The notes below the pieces were generated by a model. It did not search any database. It saw only the letters and a program-made list of their open reading frames with translations, and had not been told where the DNA came from. Positions 19,229-60,407 of a DNA stretch of 64,000 nt are shown piece after piece. Numbering within the stretch: position 1 is the first letter of the stretch; the number at the start of each line of letters is the position of its first letter. The position numbers and the translations under genes are program-made. This stretch comes from Lampris incognitus (taxonomy: Eukaryota > Chordata > Actinopteri > Lampriformes > Lampridae). The stretch is from NCBI RefSeq assembly GCF_029633865.1, contig NC_079213.1, positions 103,783,434 to 103,847,433 on the forward strand. Direction: 5' to 3'.

Positions 19229-19730
19229 GTGTGAGGCCAGTTTCAGAGAAATGACGTTTTACAGGATGTTCTCAACTTAATGTTGGAGTGCCTTTAATCA
19301 AACAAAGCTTAACTGGTGTTACATATTTTGCACAAAATTTAAATACACTTCGCACGAGAACGTAAGAGATAATATCTGTTGTGTGTATGGGTGTGTATGG
19401 GGGTGTGTGTGTGTGTGTGTACACGACTTAAAGTGTAAGAGGAAAAAGACAACAGACAACAGTTAAACTGGTTAAATTAAACAGAACGTCATCCAGGTGT
19501 AAAACCTGCCAGACAGGAACTCGGCACGCGGCCGCTCTTCTAGAGCAGATCTGCTAAACCAAACTGCTCGTCTGCGTTATTTGTCATGGCGGGCCTTTAC
19601 GCCAGGCTTCCATCCAGACTGAGTTGGAGGCAGGAGGCGCCTTCATTCCCAGCGTACCAACGTCACAGGAAACCAGAACCAGGGAGCGTGGCGGTCGGAG
19701 TCTGGCCCAGTGGTAAAGTGGCTGCATGCC
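18900..19730. other. intergenic, no gene recognised
   Basis: Contains a (GT)n at 19173-19232 and a shorter one at 19398-19422. No ORF with splice or promoter support. Confidence 0.5.
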
Positions 19731-21067
19731 GACTGGTGCGGCTCACCGTGCAGGCTGGTGCGGCTCACCATGCAGACTGACATGGCTCACCATATAGACT
19801 GGTGTGGCTCACCATGCAGACTGGTGCGGCTCACCGTGCAGACTGGCGTGGCTCACCGTGCAGACTGGCATGGCTCACCGTGCAGACTGACATGGCTCAC
19901 CATGCAGACTGACATGGCTCACCATATAGACTGGTGTGGCTCACCATGCAGACTGGTGCGGCTCACCGTGCAGACTGGCGTGGCTCACCATGCAGACTGG
20001 CGTGGCTCACCATGCAGACTGGTGCGGCTCACCGTGCAGACTGGCGTGGCTCACCATGCAGACTGGCGTGGCTCACCATGCAGACTGGCGCGGCTCACCG
20101 TGCAGGCTGGCGTGGCTCACCGTGCAGACTGGTGCGGCTCACCATGCAGACTGACATGGCTCACCATATAGACTGGCGTGGCTCACCGTGCTGACTGACA
20201 TGGCTCACCATATAGACTGGCGTGGCTCACCGTGCTGACTGGCGTGGCTCACCGTGCAGACTGGTGCGGCTCACCATGCAGACTGACATGGCTCACCATA
20301 TAGACTGGCGTGGCTCACCGTGCTGACTGGCGTGGCTCACCATGCAGACTGGCGTGGCTCACCGTGCTGACTGGTGCGGCTCACCGTGCAGACTGGCGTG
20401 GCTCACCGTGCAGACTGGCATGGCTCACCGTGCAGACTGGCGTGGCTCACCGTGCAGACTGGCGTGGCTCACCATGCAGACTGGCGCGGCTCACCATGCA
20501 GACTGGCGTGGCTCACCGTGCAGACTGGCGTGGCTCACCGTGCAGACTGGCGTGGCTCACCGTGCAGACTGGTGCGGCTCACCATGCAGACTGACATGGC
20601 TCACCATATAGACTGGCGTGGCTCACCGTGCTGACTGACATGGCTCACCATATAGACTGGCGTGGCTCACCGTGCTGACTGGCGTGGCTCACCGTGCAGA
20701 CTGGTGCGGCTCACCATGCAGACTGACATGGCTCACCATATAGACTGGCGTGGCTCACCGTGCTGACTGGCGTGGCTCACCATGCAGACTGGCGTGGCTC
20801 ACCGTGCTGACTGGTGCGGCTCACCGTGCAGACTGGCGTGGCTCACCGTGCAGACTGGCATGGCTCACCGTGCAGACTGGCGTGGCTCACCGTGCAGACT
20901 GGCGTGGCTCACCATGCAGACTGGCGCGGCTCACCATGCAGACTGGCGTGGCTCACCGTGCAGACTGGCGTGGCTCACCGTGCAGACTGGCGTGGCTCAC
21001 CGTGCAGACTGGCGTGGCTCACCGTGCAGACTGGCGTGGCTCACCGTGCAGACTGGCGTGGCTCACC
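19731..21067 (+). repeat. 22-bp minisatellite with 440-bp higher-order repeat, about 61 units
   Basis: Unit is like GACTGGCGTGGCTCACCGTG plus CA, with variants (TGCGG, ACATGG, CATATAGA). Because 22 is not a multiple of 3, all three frames are open and give the same 22-residue periodic peptide; these are not genes. The variant order at about 20310-20600 recurs exactly 440 bp (20 units) later. Confidence 0.95.
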
Positions 21068-23504
21068 AGTAGTGAGCAGTATTGACACACAGGCCTCCTT
21101 GTCAGGAGTCACACTGAGTCAGCTTTGACACCAGGAGCACAGAACCTGTTTGCTGCCCCGTCAGCCTCCAGCTGTTTGCATATACAAACTTCAGACGAGA
21201 CCTAAAACTCAATTCAGCCGGGAGAGAATGTCTTCCAAGTTGCACAGAACAGAAAATTGAAAACAGAAGAGGTGACTTGTTTTCTTCTTAAAACATCTTG
21301 CAAGGGAGACATTATTCTGTGCACAAGCTAACAGCTGGGTAAGATTCATGCAAAAAAAACAAGTTAGCCGGCTCTTCCGGTTTACACCGGTGAGCTATTG
21401 GAAAGTCCGTTGTGATAAATAATGTGTACTGCCCCTGTCTGCTGGCCTGTATTTTAAACAAACACGGTTATAATAATCGATACTATACAGGTTACACCCT
21501 TCAGCTGGAGCTCCATCCGGATGAGCGGAGCTGGTTCACCAACATACCTGACATAGCGATGACTCCTCTGCATGTGGCAACACCACCACCACTGCCCTCC
21601 GTGGGTTATGTCACAACCATAAATTCACAGGCTCCACCTCTGATGCAGCTGTCTGGGTTGTCGGTGCACCAAAAGAGCTACAGACAAAGCAGAGAAACCC
21701 CCCCCCACCCCCCCACCTGGTCTCAGCAACATCTGGGGCACTTTCAAGTTCGGCAGCCACTCCTGTTGTACAGCACTACTTTCCCCGGACGAAATGTCCA
21801 AACCAGTCTGTTGGCTTGTATGTTCATTAAAAAATGCACTAATGTGCACGTCAGACCCCCGTCGTGGGTGATTTACAGTGGCAGGTTGCTAAATGGACAA
21901 ATTTCCCGACCCAGTAGCCCCCCAGAAACTGCGAAGCGCTGCGGGACTTGTAGTCCAAAGACTTTCTTTACAGCCTCGGTTTGAGTTCAGCAAGTCGGTT
22001 AAGGCATTGCCCCCCATCCAGCTGCTTTCTAAGCCGGTTCAGACCCTGACGGTGTGGATACTGCTCATCCTCCCCTCTGGGGCAACGCCGCAGAAGGGTG
22101 GTCGGACCATGACGCGCTGCGTCTCATCCATCCATCCATCCATCCGCCGGTCCATCTTCCAGACTCAACGTTACACACACTACCAGAAACAATGACTGAA
22201 ATGTTCGAGTACAAAAAATTCCCAGGCAAAGTTTCCAGCTGTGCGGGCAACAATGAAAGACGACACACACACACACCCACACACACACACACACACCCAG
22301 CTCCCCAGTCTCGCCTCTGTATGGGTGGAGATCTGCGTGCGCGCATGTTTCATCATGCGCCCTGGTCCGGTCTGCTCCTGTGTTAGACGTGACAGAAACA
22401 AATGTGAAATAATTCCGGAAGTTCCTGCGTCAAGTCTAGTTTCAAATGTTCGCCAGCTGATGCCCGTCGACACTTCGTGAGCCAGTTACAGACACAACCA
22501 AAGGTCAGACCTTCTGTCTGCAACAGGTGAGGGCTTAGCAATGGCCCTGGACCCGTGAGAAGGTGAGCCGACGGAGGAATACATAGACGTACGTCACGCC
22601 AATTACTAACAGGTGCTTATCAGTGTAAATATGTTATAAATGTGTTATAAATGACAAAAGCTGTCCGAAGACCACAGCAGGACAGGTTTAAAGGCAACTC
22701 ACCTGTTGGAAGGACGGATCAGATCCCCACCTCAACACCGCAGCGTGTTCAGCAGCATTCGGCACTCGTCGTTAATTATAAGTTCTTACATTGGTAATTA
22801 GGCTACGTAATTGAAGTTGAAGCTCAACAGCTCGGTCCCTCGTCTCACCTGGCCGTCAGGTAAGTGTGATCGTCTCCTTACGCATACGCGCCCGAGACAC
22901 TGAAGACACGCCCACCAGCGCAGCTTCGGCCCCGCCCACACATGCGTGTGCGTGAGCGTGAAGGAGACCGCCCGCGCCCCGTGCGGGGTCAGAAGTCATT
23001 TAACCTCCGCTCGTCCCGAGCGTTTTCCCCGTACCATTTAAATACCATTTAAACACACACACACACACACACTCTCTCTCTCACACACACTCACACACAC
23101 ACAGAACAAAATATTTAAACACACATGTCAGTGTCTGCCCAAATGTTCCCGGGGCTTTTCTGCAGGAAGAACCGGTCGTCACAGAGCCGCTTTTTCCCCC
23201 AGTTACGAGAAACGGCCAGTCACGTGACTCCGTGCTAATCTGAAGAGGAAGTCCAGCTGAAGCGGAGGAGCCTGCTGCTGCGGAGGGAGGAGCCTGCTGC
23301 TGCGGAGGGAGGAGCCTGCTGCTGCGGAGGGGAAACATTATTACGTCCGGAGACATCTAAAACTTAACAGCTGTGGTTCTTATTCTCAAACCTTTTTTTT
23401 TGTTTGGTTTTTTTTTTTGGATCTGTTGGAAAAAGCCAAAAGTAACCTCACTTGTGTCAGTAAATGCCAGGTAGCATGTGAGCATGTTATCCTAGTCCTC
23501 CAAT
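21068..23504. other. intergenic, CpG-rich in its right half
   Basis: No gene recognised. GCGGGACTTGTAGT at about 21941-21954 resembles a ZNF143-type site. A (CA)n run lies at 22264-22295 and another at 23055-23102. About 22850-23330 is rich in CpG but no first exon could be supported. Confidence 0.45.
23263..23332 (+). repeat. three tandem copies of a ~23-bp GC-rich unit
   Basis: Unit GGAGGAGCCTGCTGCTGCGG plus AGG is repeated three times without change. Confidence 0.9.
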
Positions 23505-24090
23505 GTCCCTCACAAAAAAGTGGTTTATTCAAGGGTGCTATTAGTACACTCTTTTTAAACTCAAAATCAGTGAGTATGCTCTTTAAGTACTTATCAGAGA
23601 AGTATTGAAATAGTACACTTACAAGTATACTGCTAGTACGTTGATATTAGTAATGTAAACTACTAATAAGACCCCCTAGCTAACGGGTCTGACCCTGTAG
23701 TCGAGCGGTTAGTGATGTCGCCTTGTGGTGCAGTACACCTCGTATCGAATCCCGCACCGGGCAAGAAAATAACCGGTTACATTGGTGGCAGCGGTGGGAT
23801 CCGGAAGTGTGCAGATCCTCAGAAGTCTCTTCGGAGCGCGGGAAGAACAAAGCGCGAGGGCGCGCTTCCGGGGAGGGTGACGACTGTAAACTACTAATAA
23901 GACACGTTAGCCCCTAGCTAACGGGTCTGACCCTTTAGCTGAGCGGTTAGTGATGTCACCTTGTGGTGCAGTACACCTCGTATCGAATCCCGCACCGGGC
24001 AAAAAAATAACCGGTTACAGTAAGTATAAATATACTTGAACTTTACTTGATAAAATTAACTTCAGGTATACTTTTTTGTTTGTAAGGGAT
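23505..24090. mobile_element. decayed MITE carrying a nested LTR element
   Basis: Starts TCCCTCACAAAAAAGT and ends ACTTTTTTGTTTGTAAGGGA, near inverted repeats. The body is rich in AGTATACTT-like motifs. The LTR element at 23654-24019 splits it; without it the AAGTATA-rich halves join. Confidence 0.6.
23654..24019 (+). mobile_element. very small LTR element (TRIM-like) with tRNA-Leu-type primer site
   Basis: Two direct repeats, 23654-23781 (128 bp) and 23885-24019 (135 bp), each start TGTAAAC and end GGTTACA. One base after the left one, TGGTGGCAGCGGTGGGAT (23783-23800) matches, from memory, the complement of the 3' end of vertebrate tRNA-Leu(AAG) including CCA. A purine run GGGGAGGG precedes the right repeat. 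The whole is flanked by GTAA at 23650-23653 and 24020-24023. The internal part is only 103 bp and has no coding capacity, so it must have moved using proteins from elsewhere. Each repeat also has A-box (TAGCTGAGCGGTTAG) and B-box-like (TATCGAATCC) motifs. A dimeric SINE is the alternative reading. Confidence 0.75.
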
Positions 24091-25937: not shown

Positions 25938-26072
25938 TGTAACCGGTTATTTTCTTGCCCGGTGCGGGATTCGATACGGGGTGTACTGCACCACAAGGCG
26001 ACATCACTACCCGCTCGGCTAAAGGGTCAGACCCCTTGGCTAGGGGCTAACGTGTGTTATTAGTAGTTTACA
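25938..26072 (-). mobile_element. solo LTR of the 23654 element family
   Basis: A 135-bp reverse-strand copy of the terminal repeat, bounded by TG and CA and flanked by the direct repeat CAAT (25934-25937 and 26073-26076), as expected for LTR-LTR recombination after insertion. Confidence 0.82.
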
Positions 26073-27704: not shown

Positions 27705-29341
27705 CAGTGCAACTGGAAAGTATTCACACCCCTTCACTTTCCCCACATTTTGTTATGTTACAGCCTTATTCCAAAATGGATTAAATTCCTTTTTTTTCTC
27801 ATCAATCTACACACAATACCCCATAAGGACAAAGTGAAAAAGGTTTTGTAGAAATTTTTGCAAATTTATTAAAAACAAAAAACTGGAATATTGCATGTAC
27901 ATAAGTATTCACACCCTTTGCTATGACACTCAAAATTGAGCTCAAGTTCATCCTGTTTCCACTGATCATCCTTGAGATGTTTCTACATCTTGATTTGAGT
28001 CCACCTGTAGTAAATTTAATTGATCGGACATGATTTGGAAAGGCACACACCTGTCTATATAAGGTCCCACTGTTGACAGTGCATGTCAGAGCAGAAACCA
28101 AGCCATGAAGTCAAAGGAATTGTCTGTGGCCCTCCGAGACAGGATTGTATCGAGGCACAGATCTGGGGAAGGGTGCAAAAAAATTTCTACAGCTTTGAAG
28201 GTCCTGAAGAGCACAGTGGTCTCCATCATTCGTGAATGGGAGAAGTTTGGATCCACCAGGACTCTTCCTAGAGCTGGCCGCCCAGCCAAACTGAGCAATC
28301 GGGGGAGAAGGGTCTTGGTCAGGGAGGTGACCAAGAACCCGATGGTCACTCTGACAGAGCTCCAGCGTTCCTCTGTGGAGATGGGAGAACCCTACAGAAG
28401 GACAACCATCTCTGCAGCACTCCACCAAGCAGGCCTTTATGGTAGAGTGGCCAGACGGAAGCCTCTGCTCAGTAAAAGGCACATGACAGCCCGCTTGGAG
28501 TTTGCCAGAAAGTACCTAAAGGACTCTCAGACCATGAGAAACAAGAGTCTCTGATCTGATGAAACCAAGATTGAACTCTTTGGCCTGAATGCCAAACGTC
28601 ACGTCTGGAGGAAACCAGGCACCTCTCATCACCTTGCTAATACCATCCCTACAGTGAAGCATGGTGGTGGCAGCATCATGCTGTGGGGATGTTCTTCAGC
28701 GGCAGGAACTGGGAGACTAGTCAGGATCGAGGGAAAGATGAATGGAGCAAAGTACAGAGAGACCCTTGATGAAAACCTGCTCCAGAACGCTCAGGACCTC
28801 AGACTGGGGCGAAGGTTTACCTTTCAACACGACAACGACCCTAAGCACACAGCCAAGACAATGAAGGAGTGGCTTCGGGACAAGTCTGTGAATGTCCTTG
28901 AGTGGCCCAGCCAGAGCCCAGACTTGAACCCCATTGAACATCTCTGGAAAGACCTGAAAATAGCTGTGCAGCGATGCTCCCCATCTAACCTTACAGAGCT
29001 CGAGAGGATCTGCAGAGAAGAATGGGAGAAATACCCCAAATATAGGTGTGCCAAGCTTGTAGCTTCATACCCAAGAAGACTTGAGGCTGTAATCGCTGCT
29101 AAGGGTGCCTCAACCAAGTACTGAGTAAAGGGTGTGAATACTTATGTACATGCAATATTTCAGTTTTTTATTTTTAATAAATTTGCAAAAATTTCTACAA
29201 AACCTTTTTCACTTTGTCATTATGGGGTATTGTATGTAGATTGATGAGGAAAAAAAGGAATTTAATCCATTTTGGAATAAGGCTGTAACAGAACAAAATG
29301 TGGGGAAAGTGAAGGGGTGTGAATACTTTCCAGATGCACTG
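27705..29341 (+). mobile_element. near-complete Tc1-like DNA transposon
   Basis: A 1637-bp element with ~215-bp terminal inverted repeats (27705-27919 and 29127-29341) starting CAGTGCAACTGGAAAG and ending CTTTCCAGATGCACTG. Both sides have TA within (TA)n sequence, as expected for Tc1/mariner insertion. The repeats differ only slightly, so it is fairly young. Confidence 0.95.
28105..29124 (+). pseudogene. Tc1 transposase, one in-frame nonsense codon
   Basis: One frame of 339 residues, the usual Tc1 length, broken only by TGA at 28552-28554. The paired-like DNA-binding N-terminus has ALRDRIVSRHRSGEGCKKIS and a GRPAKLS AT-hook-like motif. The catalytic DD34E residues are visible in [15 protein letters not shown] and NPIEHLW. 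The TGA sits where the family has Trp just before SDETK, so a single TGG-to-TGA change would explain it. It would cut off the whole catalytic core. Confidence 0.93.
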
Positions 29342-39625: not shown

Positions 39626-42600
39626 GTAAGTTTTTTTCCCTTTTTTTTTTAAACAGCCTCTGTGGTCCAATAGCGTCTGCCTCTGCCATGAAGCAGGATA
39701 AAGGGTGTAGAAACCCGGTCCACGGTGTAGCACGTGGATGGAGTCACATCTCTCCCTCTTCGCTCGTGTCAGCCTCTGTGATGAAGATGAGGCGAGGACG
39801 CGTTCTTCTTCCTAGCGATCTGTGTCATCCATTGTACAGGAGGGCAAAGCGTCGTTCTTCTTGTTCCTGTTCTTGTTGAGAGCCTCTGCCCTCCATCAGA
39901 AATGCTCATACTTCACCTGAGGTGGAGTGGTTGGTTGTGCTGCACTTTTTCCCCCCTGTATGTCTTTTTTCACGTTCCTTTAAAAAAAAAAAGTAAATTG
40001 CAAAAAAAAAAACCCCACACATACAGGAAGCAACATAACAGCAATGCACATGAGATGATATGGAGCTGATGAGGTGGCGGGGTGTCTGTCTGTCGTGTCA
40101 GCGGCACCTGCAGAAGATGTGGACGGGGTGGCCACAGAGGGGCCAGCTGCAGCTTATTCGGGGACTCAAGTCGTCCCCAAAATGTGGAGCATCTGCTGTA
40201 CAGATGTAGCTTACGTTGTGCAATCAAGAGGACGAGACGTAATTTGGCAAATGAATACAAACGACTATTTGAAAATAACGGAATAAGAATCCGACATGAA
40301 GTCATGGAGAATTGGAAACATGCGCCCACGCGGCCTTTGCGGTCCTGTCATTACAGGTGTATTACAGTTGTTATAGGTTTTGCAGATGGGTAATAGAGTA
40401 TTGCTATCCGCATACATGGAGTGCTGATTTGAGACCAATAAGGTTCTCAGTAGGTTTTTATTGTCGTGTGACCTGACCACAAAAGAAAAATAGCATTTAT
40501 TTTTTTCCTTCAGATGATGGACCATGACGGACCACCCTTGTTTCACATTGCCAGAAGTTCTTAGTTACACCTGGTTCTGTTTTGTCATTACGTAAAAACT
40601 ATTACTCTGCACAAGTTTTCACCATTCAGATTATAAGTATGCACACACACACACACACGAAGGAGACCTGAGCCAGACCCAGACCCAGCATAGCGTGCTG
40701 TGTAACTCCCATAGAGTGTTTTGTTATATTGAATCCGAGTAAAGGAGCGCGAGACACAGTGAGGGGCGAGGAGCAACAACCAGACAAGTCCCCCGAGTCC
40801 GGGTTTGCCCTTCATGTGCAGTAGATATGATGCAGACCTTTATTCATTTTGCACCTTTCATACACGGACTGCAGCTCAAAGTGCTTTACATTAGAAAGAC
40901 CCAAATCAAAACAGCCACATTCAGAAAAAAAATGACATGAAAAGTCCGTTTGAGAGTGTTTCACAATCAACGAGAGAGAAGGAAAAGTCAAGTTAAGAGC
41001 GTTTAAACTGATAAAAGTGAAACGTTACAGTGCAGATTTAGACTTTCTGAGGTTTCTCCTCATTTTTGTCCTGTTTTGTTTTTTTTTCCCTTCTGGAGTT
41101 TCTCTACATGCAAATCGAGTGTTTCAGAACAGTGGATGTCGTTCATTAGTGCTCTGCTATTTTTATCTGTCGGAGGATGTGAGTGTGATTATGAAGCCCC
41201 CTGGGAGGCTGGCGTCATTTAGGACTAAACAAACAAATGCTGACTGTCTGACGCGCTCGATCGTTGTCTTCGTACCTGCAGTTGAGATCCAGGCCACCAG
41301 GTCGGTGATGCTGCTCAGCATCTTCCTGTCCGGCGTGGCTCTGATGGCGTCCACCGCCGGGATGAAGTGCACGCGCTTCATGGACGGAAATGACCGGACC
41401 AAAGCCACGGTGGCCATGGTGGGAGGAATCATATTCATGATCTCAGGTGGGTTTAAAGATGGAATCTGGGATTTTTATTCCTATTAAAAGCGCCATATTT
41501 GATCCCTTTCCCCGGTGGCCTTTTCATAGTGTAAACTACTAATAAGACACGTTAGCCCCCTAGCTAACGGGGCTGAGCCTTTAGCCGAGCGGTTAGTGAT
41601 GTCGCCTTGTGGTGCAGTACACCCTGTATCGAATCCCGCACCGGGCAAGAAGATAACCGGTTACAGTAGCAACGGCCATTCAGCAGTATAGTCATTCTGC
41701 TCCCCCATATGATATTTCCCGTTGGTGCAGGCGGGGTCCGCCATTCCCGCCAACTGTTGCAAGGCGCATGCACAGGAAATGTGTCGCGTCTGCCCGGAAA
41801 AAAACTAGAAGAAGAAGAAGAAGGAACTTGCATGTCAAACGTGGACGGGCAAGCGATAAACACGAAACTAAACGTTATCAGACATTTAATCACATGTTAG
41901 ATATTATAACCGGCACGGATAAATAGACTCGCTAGCCCTTGGCTAACGGGTCGGACCCTTTAGTCGACTGGTTAACATGGTCGCCCGTGGTTCGGGAGAC
42001 ACGATTTCGCGTCCCGGCTGTGGCAGGCCACCACAGGAACTGCCGCAGCCGGGACGCGAACCCGCGACTCCCACGTCGCGGGAGACATCGCTAACCGCTC
42101 GGCTGAAGGGTCCGACCCGTTAGCCAAGGACCAACGTGTCTACTTATCCGTGCACGTTACAATATGTTACTCAGTAATGCCGTGTTGGATGACATTGTTG
42201 ATGAGCCCACTTTCTCCAAAACACGCTTGCTAGCGCTGAGTTGTCTTGCGGGTGTTGCGCCAAAATGTGAAGTCATACTGAAGCGTGAAGGGCTGTTACC
42301 ATACAGCATCACAGGCGTACAGTTGTACTTTACAGTCAGAGAAATCACTAAAACCCTTCACACGTGGCTTTGCTCCACCTTGTGCGTTTTATCCTCTTAT
42401 CTGTGATGCCCCCACTTACTCAGTTCAGATTATGTATTTTATACGAAGTGTTGGTAATGATTGTCTAATTAGTGCAAATGAACACTGACTGAATGTTTTT
42501 TTGCTTTTGTTTTCTCCACATTCAGGTGTGTTGACGTTGGCCATAACCTCGTGGTACGTCCAACAGATTATTCAGAGCTTCTTTGGATCCCGTCACCTGA

Positions 42601-57716: not shown

Positions 57717-58223
57717 GTAAGGGGGGGGGTATCCGGAACAAACCGGGCTTGAATGATCTGAAATAGTATATTTTAGGGGTTCCCACCCACCTGCGGAGAC
57801 CCCTTAAGTATTTTGTGCAGGAAAATCGACCAAAAAAAAAAACTCATTAGCTGTCAGAAAGCAAGATAGCTGTTGACCATCCCTCTCTTAATTGTTCGTC
57901 AGTGCAACATCCCCCCCCCCCTTTTCTGTCCTCAGTCGTGGCTATTTAATGGTCAGTTAAATAAACAAGGCATGTCAGCAGTTAACTGTTTTGGGGGTAA
58001 CGAAATAACTGCATATGCATTTTGTTTTGGCCTCCAACCTGGCCCGTGGTTGGAAAACCCTCTGCTCCATTTGGCTGGTTTGGTGCGGTCAACCTGCCTC
58101 CCTTCCTGCAACCTGCCCCCCTCCTGCAACCTGCCCCCCTCCTGCAACCTGCTGCCGCCGAGCTGCAAAGTGACTCGACAGAGTTTTAAACCCAACATTC
58201 AAAGCTGAGGCAGATGTGGAGAA
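57717..58223. other. start of p3h2 intron 1
   Basis: No exon seen. 58098-58155 has three to four copies of CCTGCAACCTGCCCCCCT. Confidence 0.55.
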
Positions 58224-59419
58224 GGTCTGATCGGTAGCCTGTCGGTGCAGACCCGGGGCCTGATCGGTGGCCTGTCGGTGCAGACCCGGGGTCTGATCGG
58301 TGGCCTGTCGGTGCAGACCTGGGGTCTGATCGGTAGCCTGCCGGTGCAGACCCGGGGCCTGATCGGGTAGCCTGTCGGTGCAGACCCGGGGCCTGATCGG
58401 TGGCCTGTCGGTGCAGACCCGGGGTCTGATCGGTGGCCTGTCGGTGCAGACCTGGGGTCTGATCGGTAGCCTGCCGGTGCAGACCCGGGGCCTGATCGGT
58501 AGCCTGCTGGTGCAGACCCGGGGTCTGATCGGGTAGCCTGTCGGTGCAGACCCGGAGCCTGATCGGTGGCCTGTCGATGCAGACCCGGGGTCTGATCGGT
58601 AGCCTGCTGGTGCAGACCCCCGGGGTCTGATCGGTGGCCTGTCGGTGCAGACCCGGGGCCTGATCTGTAGCCTGTCGGTGCAGACCCGGGGTCTGATCGG
58701 GTAGCCTGTCGGTGCAGACCCGGGGTCTGATCGGTAGCCTGCCGGTGCAGACCCGGGGCCTGATCGGTGGCCTGCCGGTGCAGACCCGGGGTCTGATCGG
58801 TAGCCTGTCGGTGCAGACCCGGGGTCTGATCGGTAGCCTGCCGGTGCAGACCCGGGGCCTGATCGGTGGCCTGCCGGTGCAGACCCGGGGTCTGATCGGT
58901 GGCCTGTCGGTGCAGACCCGGGGTCTGATCGGTGGCCTGTCGGTGCAGACCCGGGGTCTGATCGGTGGCCTGTCGGTGCAGACCCGGGGTCTGATCGGTG
59001 GCCTGTCGGTGCAGACCCGGGGTCTGATCGGGTAGCCTGCCGGTGCAGACCCGGGGCCTGATCGGTGGCCTGCCGGTGCAGACCCGGGGTCTGATCGGTA
59101 GCCTGTCGGTGCAGACCCGGGGTCTGATCGGTGGCCTGTCGGTGCAGACCCGGGGCCTGATCGGTGGCCTGCCGGTGCAGACCCGGGGTCCGATCGGTAG
59201 CCTGCCGGTGCAGACCCGGGGTCCGATCGGTAGCCTGCCGGTGCAGACCCGGGGTCCGATCGGTGGCCTGCCGGTGCAGACCCGGGGTCCGATCGGTGGC
59301 CTGCCGGTGCAGACCCGGGGTCCGATCGGTGGCCTGCCGGTGCAGACCCGGGGTCCGATCGGTGGCCTGCCGGTGCAGACCCGGGGTCTGATCGGTAGCC
59401 TGTCGGTGCAGACCCGGGT
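58224..59419 (+). repeat. 33-bp minisatellite, about 36 units, in p3h2 intron 1
   Basis: Unit like CTGATCGGTGGCCTGTCGGT plus GCAGACCCGGGGT. The 33-bp period keeps frames open on both strands (peptides GLIGGLPVQTR and HRQATDQTPGL); some 34-bp units (GATCGGGTAGCC) shift frame. The 446- and 415-codon reverse-strand frames here are repeat artefacts. T/C variants at the GGGGTCTG/GGGGTCCG site are clustered, with TCCG units only at 59186-59380. Confidence 0.95.
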
Positions 59420-60407
59420 TGTGCTCCACAGGAGTGTGGTTTCCATCAGTGTTCAGCTCGAAGCAGGTAGCTGAACTCTGCAGACATCTGTGTGCACTTG
59501 TTTGAATTTCATGCTTTGTGTTTTACGGTCGGCCCTGTATGCCACCCTAAGCTTCAGCAAATCTTTGCGGTTTTTTTCTTTTTTCTTTTTTTTTCTTCTT
59601 CTCTGGTTGTGTCTTTATTCCTTCTTAACTCGTTCCATATCCACAGCGGTGGTTAAACAAATCTGCAGAGCAACACTTCTCAGGGCTTGTATGTGATGAA
59701 AAAGGAGGCCGGTGTTTTTGTGCGACTGCGGCCTCCCTCCATCCGTCTCTCTCACTGGAGCTGAGGTGTCTTCACTCTGCATTATCAGCCCTTTCCCCCC
59801 TGAGGTCCGTCTTTTGGCTGGGCTGCAACCGTAGAAACGAGGAAAACTGGAGTCAGACGAGAGACCCGGACCTTCTCTCCCCGCAGACTGGACGAGATGC
59901 ATGTGGGTCTCTGTAGTCCAGCAGAGCTGTACGTCACAGAGCAGCTTTAACGTTTGCACTGTCATGAAACTGAGATTGCGTAAATCTTCAGCCCACGTGG
60001 GCGCTGACTGTAAACCCCCCGACCCCTCGTTCTACTTACTGATGGAGGGAGACATCTTGTTCCAGCTGTAGTCGGTGTAAAAGCACCCCCCCTTTTCTTT
60101 CTCTATGCGGTCACCCCAAATCTATCCCGGATTAGAGGACCTGGGCCCAAACAAATCCAGCTGCTAGCTTGATGTTGGTGAATTGACGCTGGCTGTTGCA
60201 GTTGCCCGGACTTGCTTAGACACCATTACTGTTAGTGTCTGCTATTGAGCCCTTCTCTAACTTGCACTTGATGGCATAAGTTGCCTTTTTCACTACTTGC
60301 AGCAGTGCAAATACACTCTGATTTTCCTGTTTGCCATCCCTTGTTGCTCTACCTGCACTAAATGCCTTGACTTGAAATGCAAATGCACTGCTGACATCTA
60401 CCTATAT
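59420..60407. other. p3h2 intron 1, nothing recognised
   Basis: No second p3h2 exon was found here or elsewhere to the window end. Confidence 0.5.

Follow-up and report, generated by a model that had tools for sequence, protein, structure and literature searches.

The element at positions 23654-24019 of the window (the whole stretch of 64,000 nt that was analysed) is very probably a gene-less TRIM of the Helenus type, with a putative Pol III-type promoter in its LTRs, that is primed by tRNA-Leu, mobilised by gypsy elements and subject to plus-strand transfer guided by the primer-binding site (PBS). Three classes of faulty insertion in the genome (chimeras, tRNA-bearing copies and palindromes) look like fossils of faulty reverse transcription, and jointly they favour gypsy mobilisation, tRNA-Leu priming and PBS-guided transfer. 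These insertions are what is new here; the kind of element is itself already published. Helenus was described by Kojima (2024) as a group of animal TRIMs with tRNA-like LTRs and 4-bp duplications, and Helenus, Ajax and Cassandra are together termed TRIMp3 (PMC10886601).

The element in the window and its family

The 366-bp element consists of a 5' LTR of 128 bp (23654-23781), an interior of 103 bp (23782-23884) and a 3' LTR of 135 bp (23885-24019), with both LTRs on the plus strand and a GTAA target-site duplication at the left (23650-23653) and right (24020-24023) flanks. The 5' LTR is without seven bases found in the 3' LTR; apart from this one 7-base gap, 123 of 128 aligned bases are identical. 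One base past the left LTR starts the predicted PBS (23783-23800, plus strand), which is complementary at 18 of 18 positions to the 3' end plus CCA of tRNA-Leu(AAG), as established by comparing letters with the host gene at locus L074. Farther into the interior, 23824-23842 is a sense copy of the tRNA-Leu variable arm and the start of the T-arm as they appear in locus L068 (AGTCTCTTCGGA-GCGCGGG against AGTCTCTTCGGAGGCGTGGG), and this is the same place as the switch point in a palindromic copy, L099. Two solo LTRs of the same family lie in the window, one on the minus strand at 25938-26072 (94.1%, with a CAAT duplication) and one on the plus strand at 41530-41665 (93.4%, its flanks ATAG and GTAG forming no exact duplication). 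Coordinates and alignments thus bear out what the initial annotation had claimed of the two-LTR structure with its 103-bp interior and GTAA duplication, the PBS one base after the left repeat, the interior likeness to the tRNA-Leu variable arm and the two further copies. The purine tract that it had placed before the right repeat is present (GGGGAGGG, 23870-23877, plus strand), but seven bases separate it from the 3' LTR, which it does not abut.

We refer to this Helenus-type family as F1, to its LTR as LTR1 and to its interior as INT1. A genome-wide search for the repeat, which had been suggested as a check, was run on an assembly of 1.48 Gb in 537 contigs, and the two-LTR copies, solo LTRs and 4-bp duplications that it returned agree with the TRIM reading. 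The best 40 of 3,472 candidates scored were near full-length at 94-97%, except for the window copy (100%) and one 55-bp piece; being the best matches to a full-length query, these 40 are selected for the two-LTR state. Together, 39 loci and the window yielded 40 LTR-INT-LTR triples (two each in L026 and L039, and none by the strict rule in L040 and L043), with LTRs of 128-139 bp, interiors of 102-104 bp and a median LTR-LTR divergence of 3.0%. A 4-bp duplication flanks 23 of the 40 triples, and the 17 without one comprise six units of tandem arrays (two each in L026 and L039, one each in L044 and L047) and 11 that are not such units. These four loci are tandem arrays of F1 LTRs and interiors, and a single CTAC duplication encloses the entire array in L026. 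The PBS has a constant position in the 44 F1 interiors and is spelled TTGGTGGCAGCGGTGGGATC in 35 of them.

Counts over the whole genome gave 2,563 F1 LTR-PBS junctions (1283 + 1280, at most two mismatches) and 9,981 LTR 3' ends (5007 + 4974, at most three mismatches), with no match to the reversed-pattern control in either case. Taking every junction as a separate two-LTR element, one arrives at an estimate of about half for the solo or broken share of the 9,981 LTR ends, a fraction obtained from two patterns with unequal mismatch limits. Of 13 apparently unpaired loci, taken in the order of the list (L075-L087), four carry a lone full-length LTR inside an exact 4-bp duplication (L075, L076, L083 and L084; a poly-T match in L082 is not counted), two a lone full-length LTR without one (L078 and L080), two a truncated LTR (L079 and L085), one an LTR pair without interior (L082), and four some interior sequence (L077, L081, L086 and L087), L081 with a 4-bp duplication. 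A systematic 200-kb sample contributed one F1 LTR, internally deleted.

Over 36 simple pairs, the distances between LTRs within and between F1 elements were 3.41% and 3.60%, respectively, and 250 of 10,000 permutations gave a value that low. These distances were left unused as a sign of LTR exchange within the family because a recent burst explains them equally well. The window element and locus L022 (G000:C1:10956804) both combine a 128-bp 5' LTR with a 135-bp 3' LTR, their 5' LTRs being 5.5% apart; LTR exchange within F1 is possibly behind this shared pattern. The idea of an interior hairpin as packaging signal was also dropped: the INT1 arms CCGGAAGTGTGC and GCGCGCTTCCGG pair, and the fold (z -0.54) was equalled in 50 of 200 shuffles.

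Promoter-like boxes and related families

Boxes were sought with the patterns TRGCNNAGYGG (A box) and GGTTCGANTCC (B box). On the plus strand, the 5' LTR has the A-box-like TAGTCGAGCGG at 23698-23708, with one mismatch, and the B-box-like GTATCGAATCC at 23742-23752, with two; the 3' LTR has TAGCTGAGCGG at 23936-23946, with none, and GTATCGAATCC again at 23980-23990, with two. The A box is likewise free of mismatches in both solo copies of the window, and 33 bases separate A box from B box. When the right LTR was shuffled 3,000 times by dinucleotides, no shuffle equalled the real boxes, the best having three mismatches in total against the two observed. Of 80 F1 LTR copies, 79 depart from the A-box pattern by no more than one base, and 79 have their two boxes 32-33 bases apart. 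Judged by these boxes, the LTR of F1 is a predicted Pol III-type internal promoter. The tetranucleotide TTTT occurs on the sense strand of one of the 80 LTRs and one of the 44 interiors, a near absence that would let Pol III read through; note however that TTTT is also missing from 65% of shuffled elements, which makes this weak evidence. LTR1 alone folds somewhat better than its shuffles (z -2.03, 4 of 200 as good).

The initial annotation had read the boxes as those of tRNA-Leu. Their Pol III type stands, but the specific attribution does not: the A-B gap of 33 bases compares with 42 in the host tRNA-Leu(AAG) gene, the best local alignment between LTR and tRNA-Leu covers 13 paired bases, and an Rfam search of the LTR returned no tRNA match at E up to 10. 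Consequently, the boxes are tRNA-like without being those of tRNA-Leu, and an origin of the LTR boxes from that tRNA was rejected.

A second family, F2, came to light through the systematic 200-kb sample. It has an LTR (LTR2) of 155 bp with A box TAGTCGACTGG and B box GGTTCGCGTCC and an interior (INT2) of 117 bp, and it forms 3,882 INT2-LTR2 junctions (control 0). The LTRs of F1 and F2 are 77.6% alike over 58 bp and their interiors 83% over 30 bp. F2 repeats a related leader and boxes amid different LTR flanking sequence. INT2 folds differently from INT1 (z -0.26, 75 of 200 shuffles as good). The F2 PBS, TGGTACCAGGAGTGGGGT, is distinct from that of F1, and we take it to match the 3' end of tRNA-Leu(TAA). 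A third set places the PBS TGGTGTCAGAAGTGGGAT, presumably that of tRNA-Leu(CAA), beside an INT2-like interior (L106). At 11 sites, L106 and ten more, TGGTGTCAGAAGTGGGAT is followed by TCGAACCC; this family may have kept an extended copy of tRNA-Leu(CAA), if the isoacceptor is the one we assume. Eleven F2 matches in one region (G000:C14:51.7-54.0 Mb) extend about 8 bp beyond the LTR, and this cluster may be a local duplication.

Chimeric, tRNA-bearing and palindromic insertions

At several F2 loci the 5' LTR is foreign to the TRIM. In L089, an 871-bp LTR that carries AATAAA, here called X, stands as the 5' LTR and is followed by PBS, INT2 and LTR2 inside one TAAT duplication; this LTR X is whole, from TGTAGCC to GGCTACA. 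In L062 the 5' LTR is Y, which has 269 bp in common with X at 96%, and CGTA occurs on both sides. Sequence features identify X as a Ty3/gypsy element. The 40 of 1,347 candidate X LTRs that were scored are all 99-100% identical, and 13 pairs are spaced 6,801-6,808 bp. One copy has an F2-type PBS and, ahead of the 3' LTR, GCAGGGGAGTA; its open frame of 499 aa encodes RVT_1 (E 2.2e-38) and RNase H. Comparison of INT2 with the X end pieces (361 bp around the PBS and 201 bp at the 3' end) revealed only 20 shared bases better than chance, and these are the PBS. Joints of the form X-PBS-INT2 were found at 10 sites (control 0), to which L089 adds one with an extra T, for at least 11.

Nine further F2 loci (L090-L098) were read, seven of them chosen because they had no LTR2 match upstream, so that the share of chimeras among them gives no rate. 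The 5' LTR is X in L090 and L095, another non-TRIM LTR, Z, in L096 (which lies in the G000:C14 region), and a divergent TRIM LTR, 76-82% like LTR2, in L091-L094, with an exact 4-bp duplication in three of these four; L097 and L098 have a like LTR pair.

The F1 family presents the corresponding joint with another LTR, W, which is joined to INT1 at 185 sites (control 0). All five W sites that were fetched read W-PBS-INT1-LTR1 with right flanks that all differ (LTR1 is cut short in L112), and L047 is a sixth such case. In L113, read upstream as L116, the whole LTR-W is preceded by CAAA, and CAAA appears again after LTR1. A perfect 4-bp duplication (TAAT, CGTA, CAAA) therefore encloses all three chimeras with non-TRIM LTRs that were read at both ends. 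W is probably a gypsy element as well, judging from one rearranged locus (L101) in which gypsy RNase H (E 3.2e-11) comes no more than about 60 bp after a run of LTR-W, PBS and tRNA sequence. No site joined W to an F2-type PBS and INT2, by a pattern that would miss a joint with an AAG-type PBS. The reciprocal chimera, LTR2-PBS-X interior, occurred at 0 sites, which argues against symmetrical exchange; one may speculate that the one-way result for X and F2 (11 against 0) arose because short TRIM minus strands were finished first.

Other insertions contain the primer itself. The tRNA-Leu 3' end has seven exact matches in the genome, and Aragorn called a tRNA gene in L074 only. Non-genomic CCA is present in L069/L100, L071/L101, L072 and L073/L099, CTA is found in L070, and L068 has neither; the last is a tRNA-Leu 3' half without CCA, followed by AATCTTT, and is a partial tRNA gene or a relic. 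In L099, L100 and L101 the CCA leads, through one A, into the reverse complement of an LTR end. More generally, the loci of L099-L105 join mature tRNA-Leu, extending past the 18-nt PBS and including CCA, to reverse-complement LTR. A wider tRNA pattern matched 41 sites, 10 of them with at most two mismatches (control 0); the tRNA-Leu(CAA) spelling accounts for 11 of the 41, and at some sites the sequence runs on as LTR, not tRNA.

Nine loci were read, and the arrangement of these copies varies. Behind LTR1, L102 has 48 nt of antisense tRNA-Leu (97.9%), after which comes INT1, beginning at its position 52. The palindrome L099 switches at a stretch common to tRNA and interior. Inverted LTR pairs enclose tRNA in L103 and L105, and CTCA flanks L103 at either end; L104 consists of LTR, tRNA and inverted LTR joined together. 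L107 continues past its PBS as LTR instead of tRNA, in the order LTR1-PBS-inverted LTR1-inverted INT1, an arrangement that suggests self-integration rather than tRNA copying. Where the end of the tRNA copy can be placed in linear numbering, it lies at about 39 (L101), 38/39 (L102), 40 (L103), 39 (L105) and about 42 (L070), that is, at about 38-40, beside the anticodon loop, in four of five loci. The tRNA parts of L072 and L104 are closer to other tRNA-Leu variants and give no placement, and in L099 and L100 the switch comes earlier. Linear position 38 of tRNA-Leu is canonical G37, and a stop here is consistent with a modified G37 that arrests synthesis, or else with a 3' tRNA half as the primer. 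The usual plus-strand stop on a primer tRNA is m1A58, and modification of position 37 in tRNAs reading most CNN codons is described for Salmonella (PMC13191261).

The window holds a member of this last class at 41905-42161, a palindromic insertion (no strand assigned) of two inverted F2-like LTRs between ATAT duplications (41901-41904 and 42162-42165). It is the same class of product as the inverted-LTR palindromes elsewhere in the genome. Weak Rfam miRNA matches (mir-1304) fall on it, probably on account of its hairpin.

Proposed mobilisation, alternatives and known systems

According to the explanation that we favour, transcription by Pol III would begin close to the A box of the left LTR and read through, and the TRIM RNA would enter gypsy particles. 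There tRNA-Leu would prime the minus strand, the plus strand would copy the tRNA 3' end, and in plus-strand transfer this copy would pair with the PBS of the minus strand. A co-packaged gypsy element with the same PBS could donate its own plus-strand strong-stop DNA (U3-R-U5-PBS), which would pair at the end of the TRIM minus strand so that the gypsy LTR stays 5', and gypsy integrase would insert the product with a 4-bp duplication. Intermolecular plus-strand transfer would be expected to leave just such traces: the foreign LTR complete, the crossover at the PBS and one duplication only. It would place TRIM RNA and gypsy RNA in one particle. Since unlike R regions would bar a further round, the chimera sites are probably independent events. 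A shared PBS is needed for a chimera, so matching isoacceptors alone are no proof of helper specificity, and there may be other helpers. Against the explanation as a whole count the two mismatches of the B box, the distance of the purine tract from the LTR, the 17 of 40 triples without duplication and the missing reciprocal chimera.

The A and B boxes and the many single units would also suit a tRNA-derived SINE moved by a LINE, its two-repeat form resulting from tandem copies. However, the single units resemble solo LTRs (four of 13 being lone full-length LTRs with an exact 4-bp duplication), tRNA-CCA is joined to LTR cDNA, the elements have TG...CA ends, 4-bp duplications and a PBS whose place is constant over 44 interiors, and by eye the 8-base flanks of the fetched F1 loci have no A-rich tails. 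The order LTR-PBS-interior-LTR, together with the short duplications, rules out the SINE reading, to which we leave next to no probability. We also consider it very unlikely that the chimeras stem from DNA recombination, among integrated copies that were neighbouring or ectopic, and not from reverse transcription. Recombination is common between integrated elements and accounts for most complex plant elements (PMC1950507), but it would leave unmatched flanks, whereas a single perfect 4-bp duplication encloses each of the three chimeras with a non-TRIM LTR that were read at both ends; furthermore, the right flanks differ at every site read, the PBS is all that the compared pieces of INT2 and X have in common, and the control joint W-F2-type-PBS-INT2 was found at 0 sites.

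Two alternatives concern single steps. The foreign 5' LTR could have been gained by a template switch at the PBS during minus-strand synthesis instead of by intermolecular plus-strand transfer; a switch at the shared PBS gives the identical crossover point, and read-through transcripts could carry a full 5' LTR. The 5' end of a genomic RNA is R-U5 only, yet L089 has the whole 871-bp LTR-X and L116/L113 the whole LTR-W, and we consider this route improbable. Somewhat less improbable, though still doubtful, is that the A and B boxes are passengers from an old SINE insertion in the LTR and that transcription is by Pol II or from flanking promoters. Kojima proposes a SINE insertion as the origin and remarks that a Pol III function still lacks validation (PMC10886601), and the B box is off consensus. 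On the other side, both boxes have been kept (the A box within one mismatch in 79 of 80 LTRs, the gap at 32-33 in 79 of 80), F2 carries a related leader and boxes amid other LTR sequence, and sense-strand TTTT is nearly absent.

The tRNA-bearing copies permit a broader proposition, to which we give an even chance of being right. In this animal, gypsy-type reverse transcription would be retrovirus-like, unlike that of yeast Ty3: the plus strand would copy the primer tRNA, and transfer would pair this copy with the PBS, often between co-packaged elements, so that the genome would be a record of particle sharing between TRIMs and helpers, sorted by tRNA-Leu isoacceptor (AAG for F1 and W; what we take to be TAA for F2 and X). 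In yeast Ty3 the PBS is not renewed from tRNA and transfer proceeds via R-U5, whereas retroviruses do renew it (PMC5371799, PMC7472051). The tRNA-bearing copies bear on this contrast and suggest that in this animal the gypsy-driven elements take the retroviral route.

Placed by its features, F1 is a Helenus-type family, which may be distinct from the published ones such as LTR-11_DR. It shares with Helenus the short gene-less two-LTR form (366 bp, inside the Helenus range of 311-1263 bp), A and B boxes in the LTRs (here boxes only, with no Rfam tRNA match), a PBS for a tRNA 3' end (tRNA-Leu among the vertebrate families), the 4-bp duplication (23 of 40 triples), solo LTRs, tandem arrays (reported for LTR-11_DR) and gypsy as the suspected animal helper. 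Helenus also has a polypurine tract before the 3' LTR; the tract of F1, GGGGAGGG, lies seven bases away from it. Kojima found no complementarity between the tRNA-like part of the LTR and the PBS in Helenus, and inferred the gypsy helper of animal Helenus from PBS similarity, with a more direct link for one fungal pair only (PMC10886601). Here the helper is indicated by chimeric insertions, genomic evidence for co-reverse-transcription with gypsy being given by at least 11 X-INT2 chimeras and, with W a probable gypsy, by 185 W-INT1 chimeras. Neither copies with tRNA nor palindromes, nor a sense piece of tRNA inside the interior, are described in the part of PMC10886601 at hand.

The initial annotation is supported in its reading of a TRIM, analogous to Cassandra, that has Pol III-type boxes in the LTR, a tRNA-Leu PBS and a 4-bp duplication. 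Cassandra is a plant TRIM that is likewise small, with a Pol III promoter in its LTR and tandem LTR-interior arrays, but its boxes are of 5S type, from 5S rRNA in the LTR, in place of the tRNA type found here (PMC7215508), and according to PMC10886601 no autonomous helper is indicated for it. The biv-TRIM of bivalves is an animal TRIM with solo repeats and tandem arrays; it differs in its repeats of 202-218 bp and, as far as the available part of PMC6934838 goes, in having no unambiguous PBS, no reported tRNA boxes and no autonomous partner. The template-switch complexes of Triticeae (Sabot and Schulman 2007, PMC1950507) are similar in that mixed elements lie inside one target duplication, which is the reason for considering them made before integration; they contain three LTRs and two cores, whereas here an unrelated LTR and a gene-less TRIM are joined at the PBS. 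Among titles and abstract starts of the open-access literature, we found no report of PBS-joined gypsy-TRIM chimeras or of tRNA-bearing TRIM copies. LTR swapping has reportedly been described in soybean, to go by the title of a 2010 article by Du et al. The helper of a TRIM is often inferred from sequence similarity, and PBS-joined chimeras with a single duplication provide a simple test of helper and passenger in any assembled genome. Furthermore, solo, palindromic and tRNA-bearing copies could confuse the annotation of SINEs and tRNAs.

Aragorn found no tRNA in the whole 64,000-nt window. The remainder of the window includes one exon resembling claudin (claudin-19, E 2.2e-4), one of leprecan (prolyl 3-hydroxylase 1, E 4.6e-22, with a Pfam match as well) and a piece of a Tc1/Sleeping Beauty-type transposase at 28063-28554 (HTH_Tnp_Tc3_2, HTH_SB), contents that mark the host as an animal and probably as a fish. 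Long repetitive open frames at 19600-21130 and 58090-59520 are, by eye, minisatellite-like.
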